From Streptomyces mobaraensis (lineage in GTDB: Bacteria; Actinomycetota; Actinomycetes; Streptomycetales; Streptomycetaceae): a DNA stretch of 64,000 nt. Both the position numbers and the translations under genes were made by a program. The notes under the pieces were generated by a model. The model was given only the letters and a program-made list of their open reading frames with translations, was not told the origin of the DNA and did not search any database. The stretch lies in contig NZ_CP083590.1 of the NCBI RefSeq assembly GCF_020099395.1, positions 5,580,001 to 5,644,000 on the forward strand. Reading direction: 5' to 3'. Below, piece by piece: positions 38,454 to 43,465 of this stretch; the first letter of the stretch is position 1; each line of letters opens with the position of its first letter.

Positions 38454-40148
38454 TCAGCGCACCGGCGCCTTCACCCGTTCCACCCGCTGGCTCCCGGACA
38501 GCGTGCGGTACGACCGTTCCCAGGACGACGTCGCCTTCGGGTCCCGCTTGTCGGAGAGGACGTAGTAGTCCATCTGCGCGCGCTCGGCGGTGATGTCGAG
38601 GACGCCGTAGCCGTGGGAGTCCATGTCGACCCACTTCACGTGCCGGTTGGCGGCCTGGATGGCGGCGACGGCCGGAAGCGAGACGGTGTGGGGGAGGACG
38701 TGGAGGGTGTCGTCGAGGTTGTCGGCGGTGACCGAGGTGACGACGAACTCGGTGGCGACCGAGCGGGAGACCGGGTACGTCGCGGCCGTCTCCGGGACGT
38801 CGTTGGCCCACGCCATGTGGATGTCGCCGGTGAGGAAGACGGTGTTGTTGATGCCGTGGCCGGTGAGGTGGCCGAGGAGTTCGCGGCGGTCGTGGGTATA
38901 GCCGTCCCACTGGTCGGTGTTGGCGGCGATGCCCTCCTCGGGCAGGCCCAGCAGCTTGGCGAGCGGCTTGAGGAGGTGGGCGGGCATGGCGCCGAAGGCG
39001 AGCGGGGACATCATCACCGGGTTGCCGACGAGCCGCCAGGTGGTGTCGGAGGCGGCCAGGCCGTCCTTCAGCCAGTCGAGCTGGGCGCGGCCGGTGAGGG
39101 TGCGGGACGGGGCGTCGACCGCGCCGCTGCCCGCCTTGACCTGCTCCGAGCGGAACGAGCGCAGGTCCAGCAGGTGCAGGTCGGCGAGGCGGCCGAAGCG
39201 CAGCCGGCGGTAGGTGGTGCCCTCGACGGAGGGGCGCACCGGCATCCACTCGAAGTACGCCTTCTTCGCCGCCGCGACGCGGTCGGCCCAGGCGCCCTCG
39301 GTGCCCGGCGTGTGGTTGACGGCGCCGCCGGACCAGGCGTTGTCGGCGAACTCGTGGTCGTCCCAGATGGCGACGAACGGCAGGGCCGCGTGCAGGGCCT
39401 GGAGGTCCGGGTCGGTCTTGTAACGGCCGTGCCGGGTGCGGTAGTCGGCGAGGGTGACGATCTCGTGTCTGGGCTCGTGCGGGCGGACGACGTACTTGGC
39501 GGCCGGGTACTCGCCCGACTTGTACTCGTAGAGGTAGTCGCCGAGGTGCAGCACCGCGTCCAGGTCGCGGCGGGCGGCGAGGTGGCGGTAGGCGGAGAAG
39601 TGGCCCGACTCCCAGTTGGCGCAGGAGACCACGCCGAAGCGGAGGCCGTCCGCCTGGGCGTCGGGGGCGGGCGCGGTGCGCGTCCGGCCGGTGGGGGAGT
39701 GGACCTCGCCCGAACCGCCGGTGCCCGCGCCGCCGGTGACCGTGAACCGGAAGAAGTAGTCCGTGCCGGGGCGCAGTCCGCGGACGTCGGCCTTGACCGT
39801 GTGGTCGCCGGCGGCGGACGCGGTGACCGTGCCGGAGGCGGTGACCCGGCCGAACCCGGCGTCCTCGGCGACCTGCCAGCTCACCTGGACGTCCGGGCCG
39901 AGCCCGGACCCGGGCACGGCCTCCGGGACCGGGGTCACCCGGGTCCACAGCAGGATGCCGTCGGGCAGCGGGTCGCCGGAGGCGACACCGTGCAGGAACG
40001 CGGGGGCCGAGGTCGTCTCGGCATGGGCCGCGGCGGTGGCGGCGGTGGCCGCGCGGGCGGCCGGGGCGACGGCGAGGGGCAGCAGCGCGGCGGTGGCCGC
40101 CACGCCGGTGACGGCCGCGCGGCGGGATATCGGGGGACGTGGGTTCAC
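38454..40148 (-). CDS. phoD: PhoD-type alkaline phosphatase (secreted)
   Basis: A 564-residue secreted phosphodiesterase/phosphatase needing Ca and Fe. The Tat signal has a twin Arg ([20 protein letters not shown]). An N-terminal Ig-like domain (about residues 50-150) precedes the metallophosphatase core with [25 protein letters not shown] and [16 protein letters not shown] 40148 was chosen from the signal peptide. It supplies phosphate from outside the cell; relatives are PhoP-controlled. A direct-repeat PHO box could overlap 40143-40175, but the match is poor. Confidence 0.92.
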
Positions 40149-40333: not shown

Positions 40334-41167
40334 CTACTTCTTGCGCGGGCCGAACTCCTTGTCCATGACCCCGTCGTACAGCTCCTTGGTCGCCGGCGGG
40401 ACCGGGCCGTTGGGCCCTTCCACGGTCAGCTGCTTGTCGCCGTGGAGGAGGGTCGGGGTGCCGTTGACGCCGTTCTTGCCGAAGAGCTTGCCCATCTCCA
40501 GGGCCCAGCGGTCGTAGACGTGGTCCTTGACGCTCGTCTCGAACTTGGTGTTGCCCTTCAAGGCCGGCACCTGCTGGGCTATGTCGATGAGGTGCTGGTC
40601 GTCGGCGAAGGCGTCGTCCCGCTCGTTCGGGTGGTTCTTCTTGGAGTAGAGGGCTTCCTTGTAGTCGAGGAAGGCGTCCGGGCTGACGTTCAGGGCGGCG
40701 CCCAGGGCGCTGACGGCGTTCTTGGAGCCGTCGCCCGTGAGCTGGCGGTCGAGGAAGTTGACCATGACGTAGCGGACCTTGAACCGCCCGTCCTTCATGT
40801 CCTGACGGACGGTCGAGCCGACGGCCTGCTCGAAGTCCGAGCACATGGGGCAGCGCGGGTCCTCGAAGATGGTCAGGGTTTCCTTGGCGCTCTTCTGGCC
40901 GATGACGATCTCGTTGCCGTTCTCACCGGTCGTGTTGGCGGGCTTGACGAGCGTCTTCTCGGAGGCCGCCTTCCAGTGGTCGCTGGTGCCGTCGTTCATC
41001 TTGGTGACCGCGACGACCACGCCGGCCGTGATCGCCAGGACGCCCACCACCGCGGCGCCGACGATGAGTTGGCGCCTGGTCTTGTCCTTCTTGGCCTGGC
41101 GCTCGCGCTCGGCGCGCAGCCGCTCGCGTGCGGCCTGCTTGTTCTGGGCGTTGTTGCGGTTGCTCAT
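40334..41167 (-). CDS. Membrane-anchored DsbA-like thiol oxidoreductase (copy A)
   Basis: 277 residues. A basic cytoplasmic N terminus (about 30 residues) and one membrane helix (LIVGAAVVGVLAITAGVVVAV) place a thioredoxin-fold DsbA domain outside the cell. The active site is DPRCPMCSDFE (CPMC) and the cis-Pro loop is VNGTPTLL. It closely resembles copy B at 41967. It lies 42 bp after a four-helix membrane protein gene. It should oxidise or isomerise disulfides in exported proteins. Confidence 0.9.
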   Translation of the reverse strand: MSNRNNAQNKQAARERLRAERERQAKKDKTRRQLIVGAAVVGVLAITAGVVVAVTKMNDGTSDHWKAASEKTLVKPANTTGENGNEIVIGQKSAKETLTIFEDPRCPMCSDFEQAVGSTVRQDMKDGRFKVRYVMVNFLDRQLTGDGSKNAVSALGAALNVSPDAFLDYKEALYSKKNHPNERDDAFADDQHLIDIAQQVPALKGNTKFETSVKDHVYDRWALEMGKLFGKNGVNGTPTLLHGDKQLTVEGPNGPVPPATKELYDGVMDKEFGPRKK

Positions 41168-41209
41168 GATGTCCTCTCACGGGACGTACGAAGGTCGGGG
41201 ACGGTGCGC

Positions 41210-41881
41210 TCAGGCGGTGCGTGCCTGGGGCGGTCCCCGACGTACGACGGAGTGGACGAGCAGGGGGAGGGCGCGGGCGTGCGGGGTGTCGCGGGACGGG
41301 CGTGCCGTCACGCCCGACGGGGCGGGTGCCGCGCCCTTCGCGATGGCCAGCAGCAGCGGGCGGAAGGCGAAGGCGGCCACCGCGCGCAGCAGCCGGGCGA
41401 GGGCCACTTCGCCGCGGTGGAGCCAGGCGGCGGCCAGCATGCCGACGGCGATGTGCAGGGCCAGCAGCAGCCACGGCGCCGCCGAGTCCAGCGCGTCCGC
41501 CGGTGGGCCCTGGCCCGCCGTGAGGTGGGCGAGCGGGGTGCCGACGTCGCCGCCGCGGCAGACCAGGTCGATGCCCATCGAGCGCAGCGGGCCCGCGACC
41601 GGGCCGCCCGCCGCGCCGTAGCAGGCGTGCTGGCCGGTGGTGAAGACCGTGTCGGCGGCCAGTTCCAGCGGGACGAGGAGGGCGGCTATGTGCCCGTAGC
41701 CGCGCTCGCGGCCGGCCAGGGCGTAGGCGAGGGCGAAGAAGGCGGCCGACAGGGCGGCGACCGTGGACACCGGGAGCGGCATCCGGGAGAGGAGCACGTG
41801 GGAGGCGGACGACAGGGTGACGCACACCGCGGTGAACAGCGCGGCGCGCAGCGCCCGCAACCGAACTCCCGTCCCCTCCAT
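41210..41881 (-). CDS. Unknown four-helix membrane protein with paired Cys (copy A)
   Basis: 223 residues, no recognised family. Four hydrophobic segments. Features shared with copy B (42833): SSASHVLLS in helix 1 (STSSHVLLS in B), GRERGYG, LLVPLELA.TVFTTGQH.CYG, a second Cys in DLVCRGGDVG (TLICGGGEVG in B) and His in helix 4 (LHIAVGMLAAAWL). The two conserved Cys are about 20 residues apart between helices 3 and 4. A DsbB/VKOR-like role toward the adjacent DsbA-like protein is possible but unproven. ATG 41881 has no clear ribosome site. Confidence 0.75.
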   Translation of the reverse strand: MEGTGVRLRALRAALFTAVCVTLSSASHVLLSRMPLPVSTVAALSAAFFALAYALAGRERGYGHIAALLVPLELAADTVFTTGQHACYGAAGGPVAGPLRSMGIDLVCRGGDVGTPLAHLTAGQGPPADALDSAAPWLLLALHIAVGMLAAAWLHRGEVALARLLRAVAAFAFRPLLLAIAKGAAPAPSGVTARPSRDTPHARALPLLVHSVVRRGPPQARTA

Positions 41882-41889
41882 AACCGGGA

Positions 41890-41923
41890 AGTGTGCCACG
41901 ACACGCCGTAATTGTCGTGTCAA
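41890..41923 (-). promoter_or_regulatory. Inverted repeat and -35-like element upstream of copy A cassette
   Basis: CACGACA (41897-41903) and TGTCGTG (41913-41919) form a perfect 7-bp inverted repeat with a nine-base spacer, next to a minus-strand TTGACA (41923-41918). The -10-like CACACT (41895-41890) is 22 bases away and eight bases from the ATG, so the spacing is unusual. Possibly an operator over the promoter. Confidence 0.35.
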
Positions 41924-41966
41924 GATTCGGCATCTTCCGGCGGGGACGGGAGCCGCGCCGCGCGGG

Positions 41967-42794
41967 CTACTTCAGGCGCGCGTCGACCGCCTGGCGGAAC
42001 TGCTCGGCGGTCATCGGAGCGCCCTTGCCCTGGGGGGTGTCCACCGTCAGCTTCTCACCGTCCAGCTTGATCGTCGGCGTTCCGGTCACATCCTTGTGGC
42101 TGTCGAACTCGTCGGACATCTCCAGCGCCCACTTGTCGAAGGTGCCGTCCTTGACGTTCTTCTCGAACTTCGCGTTGCCCTTTAGAGCGGGGACCTGCTG
42201 GGCGATCTTCAGCAGGGTGTCGTCGTTCGCGAAGGCGTCCTTGGTCTCCACGGGGTGGTTGGCCTTGGAGTACAGGGCCTTGTTGTAGGCGGAGAAGGCC
42301 TCGGGGCTGACGTCGAGGGCCGCGCCGACGGCGCTGAGCGCGTTCTTGGCGCCGGTGCCGCCCAGGCCGCGGTCGAGGAAGGCGCCGATGTGGTACCTGA
42401 CCTTGAACGTGCCGGCCTTGACGTCCTTGTCGATGGTGTCGCCGACGTTCTGCTCGAAGACCGAGCAGACCGGGCAGCGCATGTCCTGGTAGATCTCCAG
42501 GGTGTGCTTGGCGTTCTTGTCGCCGATGACGATCTCGGTGCCCTTGTCGCCCGCGGTGTTGGCCGGTTTCACGAGGGTCTTCTTGGCGGCGGCCTCCCAC
42601 GCGGAGTCCTTGCCGTCGCCGCCGAGCTGCGACACGGCCACGCCGATGCCGGCCGCGAGGGCCAGGACGCCGACGACCGCGCCGCCGACGAGGAGCTGGC
42701 GGCGGGTCCGCTCCTTTTTCGCCTGCTGCTCGCGCTCGGCGCGCAGCCGCTCGCGGGCGGACTGCTTGTTCTCCCAGTTGTTGCGCTTGCTCAT
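41967..42794 (-). CDS. Membrane-anchored DsbA-like thiol oxidoreductase (copy B)
   Basis: 275 residues, paralogue of copy A with the same start (MSKRNNWENKQSARERLRAE) and layout: cytoplasmic basic coil, one membrane helix, extracytoplasmic DsbA domain. The active site is DMRCPVCSVFE (CPVC), the cis-Pro TGTPTIK. ATG 42794 follows GGAGAAG. It lies 38 bp after its own four-helix membrane gene, as in cassette A. Dipeptides between the active-site Cys differ (PM versus PV), so redox potentials may differ. Confidence 0.9.
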   Translation of the reverse strand: MSKRNNWENKQSARERLRAEREQQAKKERTRRQLLVGGAVVGVLALAAGIGVAVSQLGGDGKDSAWEAAAKKTLVKPANTAGDKGTEIVIGDKNAKHTLEIYQDMRCPVCSVFEQNVGDTIDKDVKAGTFKVRYHIGAFLDRGLGGTGAKNALSAVGAALDVSPEAFSAYNKALYSKANHPVETKDAFANDDTLLKIAQQVPALKGNAKFEKNVKDGTFDKWALEMSDEFDSHKDVTGTPTIKLDGEKLTVDTPQGKGAPMTAEQFRQAVDARLK

Positions 42795-42832
42795 GATGCT
42801 GCTTCTCCGTGGTGTGGCTGCGGGGTTTCCGG

Positions 42833-43465
42833 TCAGGCGGGGGCGGCCTGGGCCGGGGGGCCGCGGCGGATGACGGAGTGGAGGAGCAGGGGGCGTGCGC
42901 CGGTGCGGGGGACGTACACGGCGGGGCGGGTGGGAGCGGGCACCCGCGCGGCCGGGGCGGTGCGGGCCGTGGCCAGGCGCAGCGGGCGGAACGCGGCGGC
43001 GCCGGCGGCGCGTACCAGCCGGCCGAGCGCCGCCTCGCCGCGGGCGAGCCAGGCGGTGGCCAGCAGGCCGGCCGCGAGGTGCCCGGCGAGCAGCAGCCAG
43101 GGGACGGTGCCGGGGCCGGCGACCCGGGCCAGCGGGCCGCCCACTTCTCCTCCGCCGCAGATCAGGGTGAGGGCGCCGGGCAGGGGCCGGCCGGCGGGGT
43201 CGTAGCAGGTGTGCTGGCCGGTGGTGAAGACGGTGGAGGCGGCCAGCTCCAGGGGGACGAGGAGGGCGGCCGTGCGCCCGTACCCGCGTTCGCGGCCGTA
43301 CAGCGCCCAGGCCGCGGCGTAGACGCCCGCCGTGACCGCGGCGACGACGGCTGCGGGCAGCTGCCGGCCGGACAGCAGGACGTGGGAGGAGGTGGACAGC
43401 AGCACGCACAGCGCCGTGAACAGGGCCGCCCGCAGGGCCCGCGCCGGTGCTGCGGATATGTCCAT
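42833..43465 (-). CDS. Unknown four-helix membrane protein with paired Cys (copy B)
   Basis: 210 residues, paralogue of the 41210 protein. Helices at about residues 8-28, 33-53, 60-80 and 120-140. Conserved His in LSTSSHVLLSG, paired Cys in TTGQHTCYDP and TLICGGGEVG, and His in LLAGHLAAGLL. The tail after helix 4 is basic and Pro-rich. ATG 43465 was chosen where homology to copy A begins; no Shine-Dalgarno is visible. It is first in a two-gene unit with the DsbA-like gene. The function is not known. Confidence 0.75.
   Translation of the reverse strand: MDISAAPARALRAALFTALCVLLSTSSHVLLSGRQLPAAVVAAVTAGVYAAAWALYGRERGYGRTAALLVPLELAASTVFTTGQHTCYDPAGRPLPGALTLICGGGEVGGPLARVAGPGTVPWLLLAGHLAAGLLATAWLARGEAALGRLVRAAGAAAFRPLRLATARTAPAARVPAPTRPAVYVPRTGARPLLLHSVIRRGPPAQAAPA

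Follow-up and report, generated by a model that had tools for sequence, protein, structure and literature searches.

We studied a stretch of 64,000 nucleotides from Streptomyces mobaraensis (NCBI RefSeq assembly GCF_020099395.1, contig NZ_CP083590.1, positions 5,580,001 to 5,644,000), hereafter the window, and in it four minus-strand genes that form two tandem cassettes. Each cassette joins a gene for a four-helix membrane protein (MP) to a gene for a DsbA-like partner (DsbA) in the order MP1, DsbA1, MP2, DsbA2, and the gaps between MP and DsbA are 38 and 42 bp; two such paralogous units had been described in an earlier note made from the sequence alone, and our study confirms them. Unless a locus is named, coordinates refer to the window; linked denotes an MP with an adjacent downstream DsbA gene, and labels such as G001 and L001 are the identifiers of the genomes and loci sampled in this analysis. 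MP residues are labelled C20 and His28 (both in transmembrane helix 1, TM1), C87 (first loop Cys) and C103 in MP1 or C108 in MP2 (second loop Cys). The features are the following:

42833..43465, minus strand: MP1, four-TM protein of the DsbA-linked branch (P0001), 210 aa
43205..43207, minus strand: Cys87 codon of MP1, end of TM3, predicted outer face; Cys in 121/121 and in 129/129 linked sequences
43157..43159, minus strand: Cys103 codon of MP1, loop 3-4; Cys in 121/121 and in 129/129 linked sequences
41967..42794, minus strand: DsbA1, membrane-anchored DsbA-like thioredoxin (P0003), 275 aa; Thioredoxin_4, 2.7e-34
42465..42476, minus strand: active site CPVC of DsbA1
41210..41881, minus strand: MP2, paralogue of MP1 (P0002), 223 aa
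41621..41623, minus strand: Cys87 codon of MP2
41558..41560, minus strand: Cys108 codon of MP2
40334..41167, minus strand: DsbA2, membrane-anchored DsbA-like thioredoxin (P0004), 277 aa; Thioredoxin_4, 7.4e-30
40841..40852, minus strand: active site CPMC of DsbA2

Both DsbA proteins carry a CPxC site within a Thioredoxin_4 domain (119.2 bits for DsbA1 and 104.7 bits for DsbA2, against a cut-off of 23.2) and, as read from the sequence, a basic N-terminus followed by a single hydrophobic stretch. The relatives of DsbA1 in the PDB include the disulfide oxidoreductase 4k6x, MdbA and BdbD. In both MPs the motif TTGQH plus one residue leads to Cys87, and the next Cys follows 16 positions later in MP1 and 21 in MP2; His28 in helix 1 and a His in helix 4 (His129 in MP1, His143 in MP2) complete the set of residues to which the earlier note had drawn attention. 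The paralogues are 60% (DsbA1/DsbA2) and 58% (MP1/MP2) identical, and MP2 is closer by tree path than MP1 to the single-copy MP genes of Streptomyces. The four-gene unit is divergent from a gene that we take, reading its sequence by eye, to be dnaE (start 43662, plus strand), and lies upstream of a gene that presumably, on the same ground, is PhoD-like (38454-40148).

Conservation of the MP-DsbA pair

The earlier note proposed that the co-occurrence of the two genes be checked, and the pairing proved to be strong: MP and DsbA constitute a conserved pair. The MP family was found in 101/101 Streptomyces genomes, and a DsbA-like gene lies downstream of the MP in 98 of them. In all 30 genomes whose loci were fetched (L023-L052), this gene is just downstream and on the same strand; for the other 71 genomes, the best DsbA match is 46-413 bp downstream on the same strand in 68. 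The three genomes without the pair are G001, whose MP starts at the first base of a contig, G044, whose DsbA is 256 bp from a contig end, and G097, an unclear case in 1420 contigs. Among the matches listed, linked MPs have so far been found only in Streptomycetaceae.

The two-cassette form is shared with relatives of S. mobaraensis. The 22 linked loci L081-L102 were fetched from named relatives with DsbA1 as the query; the four genes are intact in 16, and in the other 6 the contig stops within the unit. Of these 22 stretches, 17 include dnaE and 18 include PhoD. Among the species with this form are S. huiliensis, S. abikoensis, S. griseocarneus, S. orinoci and S. netropsis. The suggestion that the cassettes are specialised by their CPMC and CPVC active sites found no support, given that CPMC occurs in 2 of the 129 linked DsbAs and the commonest site is CPIC (52).

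Further DsbA-like genes occur in these genomes. In S. mobaraensis, some 30 kb separate the cassettes from a Thioredoxin_4 gene that has no MP (L019:5915-6646, past the end of the window at genome position 5650139 or thereabouts), and many of the 71 Streptomyces genomes, which we did not count, have a similar second DsbA match 25-55 kb from the cassette. An extra same-strand DsbA-like gene also stands beside a single cassette in L029/L166, L032, L034, L035, L036 and L170, with the site CPPC in L029, L032, L035 and L036.

Predicted structure and topology of the MP

An AlphaFold2 model of MP2, built from a 78-sequence alignment (mean predicted local distance difference test, pLDDT, 78.7; predicted template modelling score, pTM, 0.65), has four long helices (4-32, 38-55, 62-88 and 135-156) and four short ones (98-102, 104-108, 158-172 and 174-183). 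In the model C87 ends the third long helix and C108 lies within the loop after it. Fold searches of the PDB with the MP (Foldseek, VIA) gave no useful match. Counts of Lys and Arg in MP2 are 3 in the N-terminal 12 residues, 1/5 in loop 1-2, 2/6 in loop 2-3, 2/46 in the Cys loop and 10/67 in the C-terminal tail. This pattern of positive charge suggests that the Cys loop is extracytoplasmic, on the same side as the DsbA domain; a cytoplasmic location of the Cys residues, which the earlier note regarded as fatal to its idea, is thus not what is predicted. The tail, predicted to be cytoplasmic, carries an RGPP motif in both branches of the family described below (in the window, for example, at 41210-41260), with Arg, Pro and Pro in 78/78 and Gly in 77/78 members.

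A residue switch between linked and unlinked MPs

We tabulated residues in 212 MP frames, of which 189 are distinct and 186 have at least 900 bp downstream, namely 129 linked and 57 unlinked MPs; seven partial MPs, three distinct MPs with less than 900 bp downstream and one open reading frame (ORF) of the MauE locus L216 were left out. Both loop Cys residues are present in all 129 linked MPs, whereas none of the 57 unlinked MPs has the two together, and a first Cys is found in one (L103). A CxxC motif occurs in 0/129 linked and 1/57 unlinked MPs. The His residues differ as well: unlinked MPs have a His in TM1, TM3 and TM4 in 57/57 cases each, whereas in linked MPs the TM3 His is absent (0/129; Asp in 94, Asn in 18, others in the rest), the TM1 His is present in 106/129 and the TM4 His in 128/129, the remaining one being a masked X. 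Position 73 in TM3 is Glu in 121 and Gln in 8 of the linked MPs, against Gln in 56/57 unlinked ones. The helix 1 His that the earlier note described as kept is therefore kept in both window MPs but not throughout the wider set. In a smaller set of 121 sequences, including the two of the window, C20 and His28 had appeared near-invariant, which the wider set overturned (C20 77/129, His28 106/129).

The two branches belong to one family (hhalign probability 99.9, E 2.3e-37, 216 columns), the unlinked alignment in this comparison still containing the ORF of L216. In an IQ-TREE tree of 100 rows, the linked/unlinked label changes a single time (support 99/97), and one change remains (support 99/98) when the alignment is stripped of the Cys loop and the trait-defining columns. 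These trees are unrooted and include 47 of the 129 linked and 53 of the 57 unlinked MPs, the long branches L117, L120, L122 and one of L123 having been dropped; a preliminary quick tree with 111 rows, long branches included, likewise has one change. Since the unlinked type is seen in several families and the linked type so far only in Streptomycetaceae, the former is probably ancestral and the latter derived.

In the table, no MP that lacks the Cys pair has an adjacent DsbA gene, a combination that the earlier note had named as contrary evidence; L117 comes near. In this distant unlinked locus (L117:5533-7934), an MP without the pair is followed by a sigma factor gene and a Thioredoxin_4 DsbA-like gene, and the gene after the latter looks by eye like a PepSY membrane protein. 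This hints at an association of the MP family with DsbA beyond the linked branch.

Copper loci of the wider family

In a profile search, 42/197 genomes of the class contain the MP family. We examined 42 non-linked loci (L008, L009 and 40 fetched ones, chosen as family matches other than the DsbA-linked type, so that 0/40 are linked), and in 38 of them the MP was recovered by gene caller and profile. Of the 38, 28 also encode one or more of PCuAC, DUF1775/YcnI, SCO1, CopC-CopD and a heavy-metal ATPase, and the other 10 encode none of these. The neighbour types, assigned by sequence clustering with representatives of each confirmed by Pfam, are PCuAC (23), DyP peroxidase (21), YcnI (19), SCO1 (15), CopCD (15) and sigma factor (12). 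In the literature, sco-ecuc-SLI_4212-dtpA of S. lividans is described as a copper operon (PMC4736821) and YcnI of Bacillus subtilis as copper-binding (PMC8424229). Several unlinked MPs, which we did not count, have a Met/His-rich stretch at the loop site where linked MPs have the Cys pair. From this gene context, the copper-locus members would bind or transport copper. Around linked MPs, 51 loci longer than 5 kb and 16 kb of the window gave no match to YcnI, SCO1, CopC-CopD, DyP or the L008 sigma factor, and a single PCuAC match, in L179.

The sigma factor genes that share a locus with unlinked MPs (12/38), several of which have Met/His-rich loops, include one for an extracytoplasmic function (ECF) sigma factor in L008. 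MPs of such loci (L008:5890-6729 and the others with a sigma neighbour) might act as sensors in the membrane, or might regulate a sigma factor that responds to copper.

VKOR as a third gene

The order MP-DsbA-VKOR on one strand was found in at least 19 loci of at least 15 genomes. It is important to note that 12 loci were chosen because VKOR was located near the MP and that there may be more trios than those counted here; when loci were chosen by family score alone, 12/17 were linked and 7 of those were trios, and in another set 0/5 were linked. Most flanking genes vary between the trios: the cluster with the widest distribution occurs beside 4 of the 19 trio loci listed. The VKOR of the trio is the only one found in eight genomes (G303, G315, G324, G327, G328, G330, G331 and G333). 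Of the 19 MPs of the trio group, 18 have lost the TM1 His, and L178, near this group, has MP-DsbA without VKOR.

VKOR is present in 51/61 Streptomycetaceae genomes, and that of S. mobaraensis has two VKOR genes, both outside the window. Work on S. coelicolor (PMC10433416) names one DsbA (SCO2634) and one VKOR (SCO1507). In the single-contig genome G313 (L172), MP-DsbA is present but neither a VKOR match nor a DsbB above the cut-off was found, which makes this genome a natural case for asking whether the MP can serve as an oxidase; G001 lacks VKOR and has a DsbB over the cut-off. Because of the trios, we tie the MP to the disulfide pathway and not simply to the replacement of VKOR: the role of a third component alongside VKOR is likelier for it than that of a substitute. 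The earlier idea that the MP accepts electrons from DsbA is possible, and fits the conserved pairing and the loop Cys pair, but is weakened by VKOR being so widespread, encoded twice in S. mobaraensis itself and the third gene of the trios.

Relation of the MP to known families

The earlier note had found the MPs unlike DsbB or VKOR and recommended a profile search against VKOR, DsbB and MauE; we ran it, and none of these families was matched by the MPs scanned. The two window MPs have no Pfam or NCBIfam match at E<=1 and no PHROG match at E<=0.01. A Pfam scan of 78 family members (E<=1) touched 13 families, none of them VKOR, DsbB (PF02600), MauE, DsbD or CopD. Comparison by hhalign gave a probability of 1% or less against 28 VKORs, with no match to PF07884, and of 0.1% against 19 MauE sequences, with no match to PF07291 among the 78 members. 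In the genome of S. mobaraensis no DsbB match was found at E<=1. One observation counts against the separation of MP and DsbB: in G034 a sub-cut-off DsbB match (17.6 bits, E 0.02) overlaps another MP family member (313 aa frame, same strand).

VKOR and DsbB carry two Cys pairs, and transmembrane electron carriers of the CcdA/DsbD type have a conserved Cys pair inside their membrane helices. In linked MPs the only pair kept is C87 with C103/C108 (129/129), and the membrane-proximal CxxC of the VKOR kind is found in none of the 129. The pattern of the CcdA/DsbD type is not seen in them either: the TM1 Cys is kept in just 77/129, and there is no Pfam match. Literature searches, limited to one open-access collection, found no paper describing the MP family.

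Interpretation

Our interpretation starts from what was observed directly, that is, the genes and their pairing, the conserved residues, the single change in the tree and the trios. Each cassette would encode an extracytoplasmic thiol-redox module, consisting of a membrane-anchored DsbA and a dedicated four-helix MP. The latter would most likely descend from the His-based membrane family of copper loci, lacking the TM3 His of that family and carrying the C87-C103/C108 pair on its predicted outer face. This pair may form a disulfide and would exchange disulfides with the CPxC site of its own DsbA, and the MP would act beside VKOR, a quinone-linked oxidase, as a relay, a docking partner or a second redox outlet. 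We consider it about an even chance (roughly 0.5) that the MP is a dedicated thiol-redox partner of its DsbA that acts together with VKOR. A wider proposal, which we put forward tentatively and at somewhat under even odds, is that the MP is a third core part of the DsbA-VKOR pathway of Streptomycetaceae, without detectable kinship to DsbB, VKOR or CcdA, that it arose through a single recruitment of a copper-site protein in which a His gave way to a Cys pair, and that it guides electrons or substrates as they pass between the membrane and DsbA.

Several points weigh against this interpretation. All the evidence is genomic. The linked/unlinked contrast represents one evolutionary change that was later conserved, and the 129 linked MPs are therefore not independent trials. 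The two loop Cys residues may merely form a structural disulfide, and a VKOR within the module already supplies an oxidase. L117 provides a relative without the Cys pair only two genes from a DsbA-like gene. Finally, the TM4 His, usually the TM1 His and the RGPP motif are kept, and therefore a metal or signalling role may persist.

Among the other explanations, it is unlikely, in our estimate, that the MP itself is the terminal oxidase, a non-homologous analogue of DsbB and VKOR that re-oxidises its DsbA and in which electrons would reach a quinone by way of the Cys pair, the Glu of TM3 and the His of TM4. The invariant loop pair, the acidic residue at position 73 with the nearly invariant TM4 His, and G313 would all fit such an enzyme; however, VKOR stands in the same module in at least 19 loci and is encoded in most of the genomes, and linked MPs have neither the CxxC nor a second conserved Cys pair, unlike VKOR and DsbB. 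Persistence of copper handling is likewise unlikely. Here the Cys pair and TM4 His would bind Cu(I), and DsbA would ready the pair or carry Cu(I) in the manner of ScsC or TlpA-type thioredoxins. TlpA-type thioredoxins work with copper proteins, most of the remaining family lies in copper loci (28/38), the loop of several members is rich in Met and His at the corresponding position, and ScsC offers a precedent as a DsbA-like protein reported to bind Cu(I) (PMC8900818). In the linked branch, however, the TM3 His is absent in 129/129 and the TM1 His is changed in 22, copper genes are nearly absent around it (one PCuAC match in 51 loci), and its recurring extra neighbour, VKOR, is a disulfide gene.

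An equally low probability attaches to the MP as a client or sensor, in which DsbA would install a structural or regulatory C87-C103/C108 disulfide and the predicted cytoplasmic tail would report the redox state of the envelope. A DsbA gene beside its own client would account for the pairing, and the conserved C-terminal residues (Arg, Pro and Pro in all 78 members, Gly in 77) and the sigma factor genes of 12/38 unlinked loci, with an ECF member in L008, are what a signalling protein might display. Against it, the 51 linked loci and the window stretch have no match to the L008 sigma factor, and nothing requires a client to be tied to both DsbA and VKOR in a trio whose surroundings mostly differ.

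If the MP is indeed the redox partner of DsbA, a near-universal membrane partner across the genus, unannotated so far, would fill a gap in the pathway, and it would become a concrete target for better secretion hosts. It would also illustrate clearly how a membrane protein with a metal site can evolve into one that works in thiol-redox chemistry. The His/Cys swap makes the idea open to direct testing with point mutants.

Comparison with known systems

The MP resembles VKOR and DsbB in being a small helical membrane protein with Cys residues that are extracytoplasmic (in the MP, by prediction) and a gene beside DsbA. It differs from them in having no detectable similarity to the VKOR profile, no CxxC, which PMC4555120 describes as conserved in VKOR and DsbB, and one conserved Cys pair, and in being able to share a module with VKOR. 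Its DsbA partner is like DsbA, MdbA and BdbD of Gram-positive bacteria in its Thioredoxin_4 domain, CPxC site and N-terminal anchor, but has an undescribed MP as a constant neighbour.

With the ScsB-ScsC system, a suppressor of copper sensitivity, the cassettes have in common a DsbA-like protein, a membrane partner and a connection to copper, which here would be one of ancestry only; the MP, however, is a four-helix protein without a DsbD-like match in Pfam, and any copper role of the cassettes is putative. The closest relatives are the copper-locus MPs found with YcnI/DUF1775, SCO1, PCuAC, CopCD and DyP (compare the S. lividans operon), to which the linked branch is homologous over the whole protein and with which it shares the TM4 His and the C-terminal RGPP, but from which it differs in lacking the TM3 His and possessing the Cys pair.

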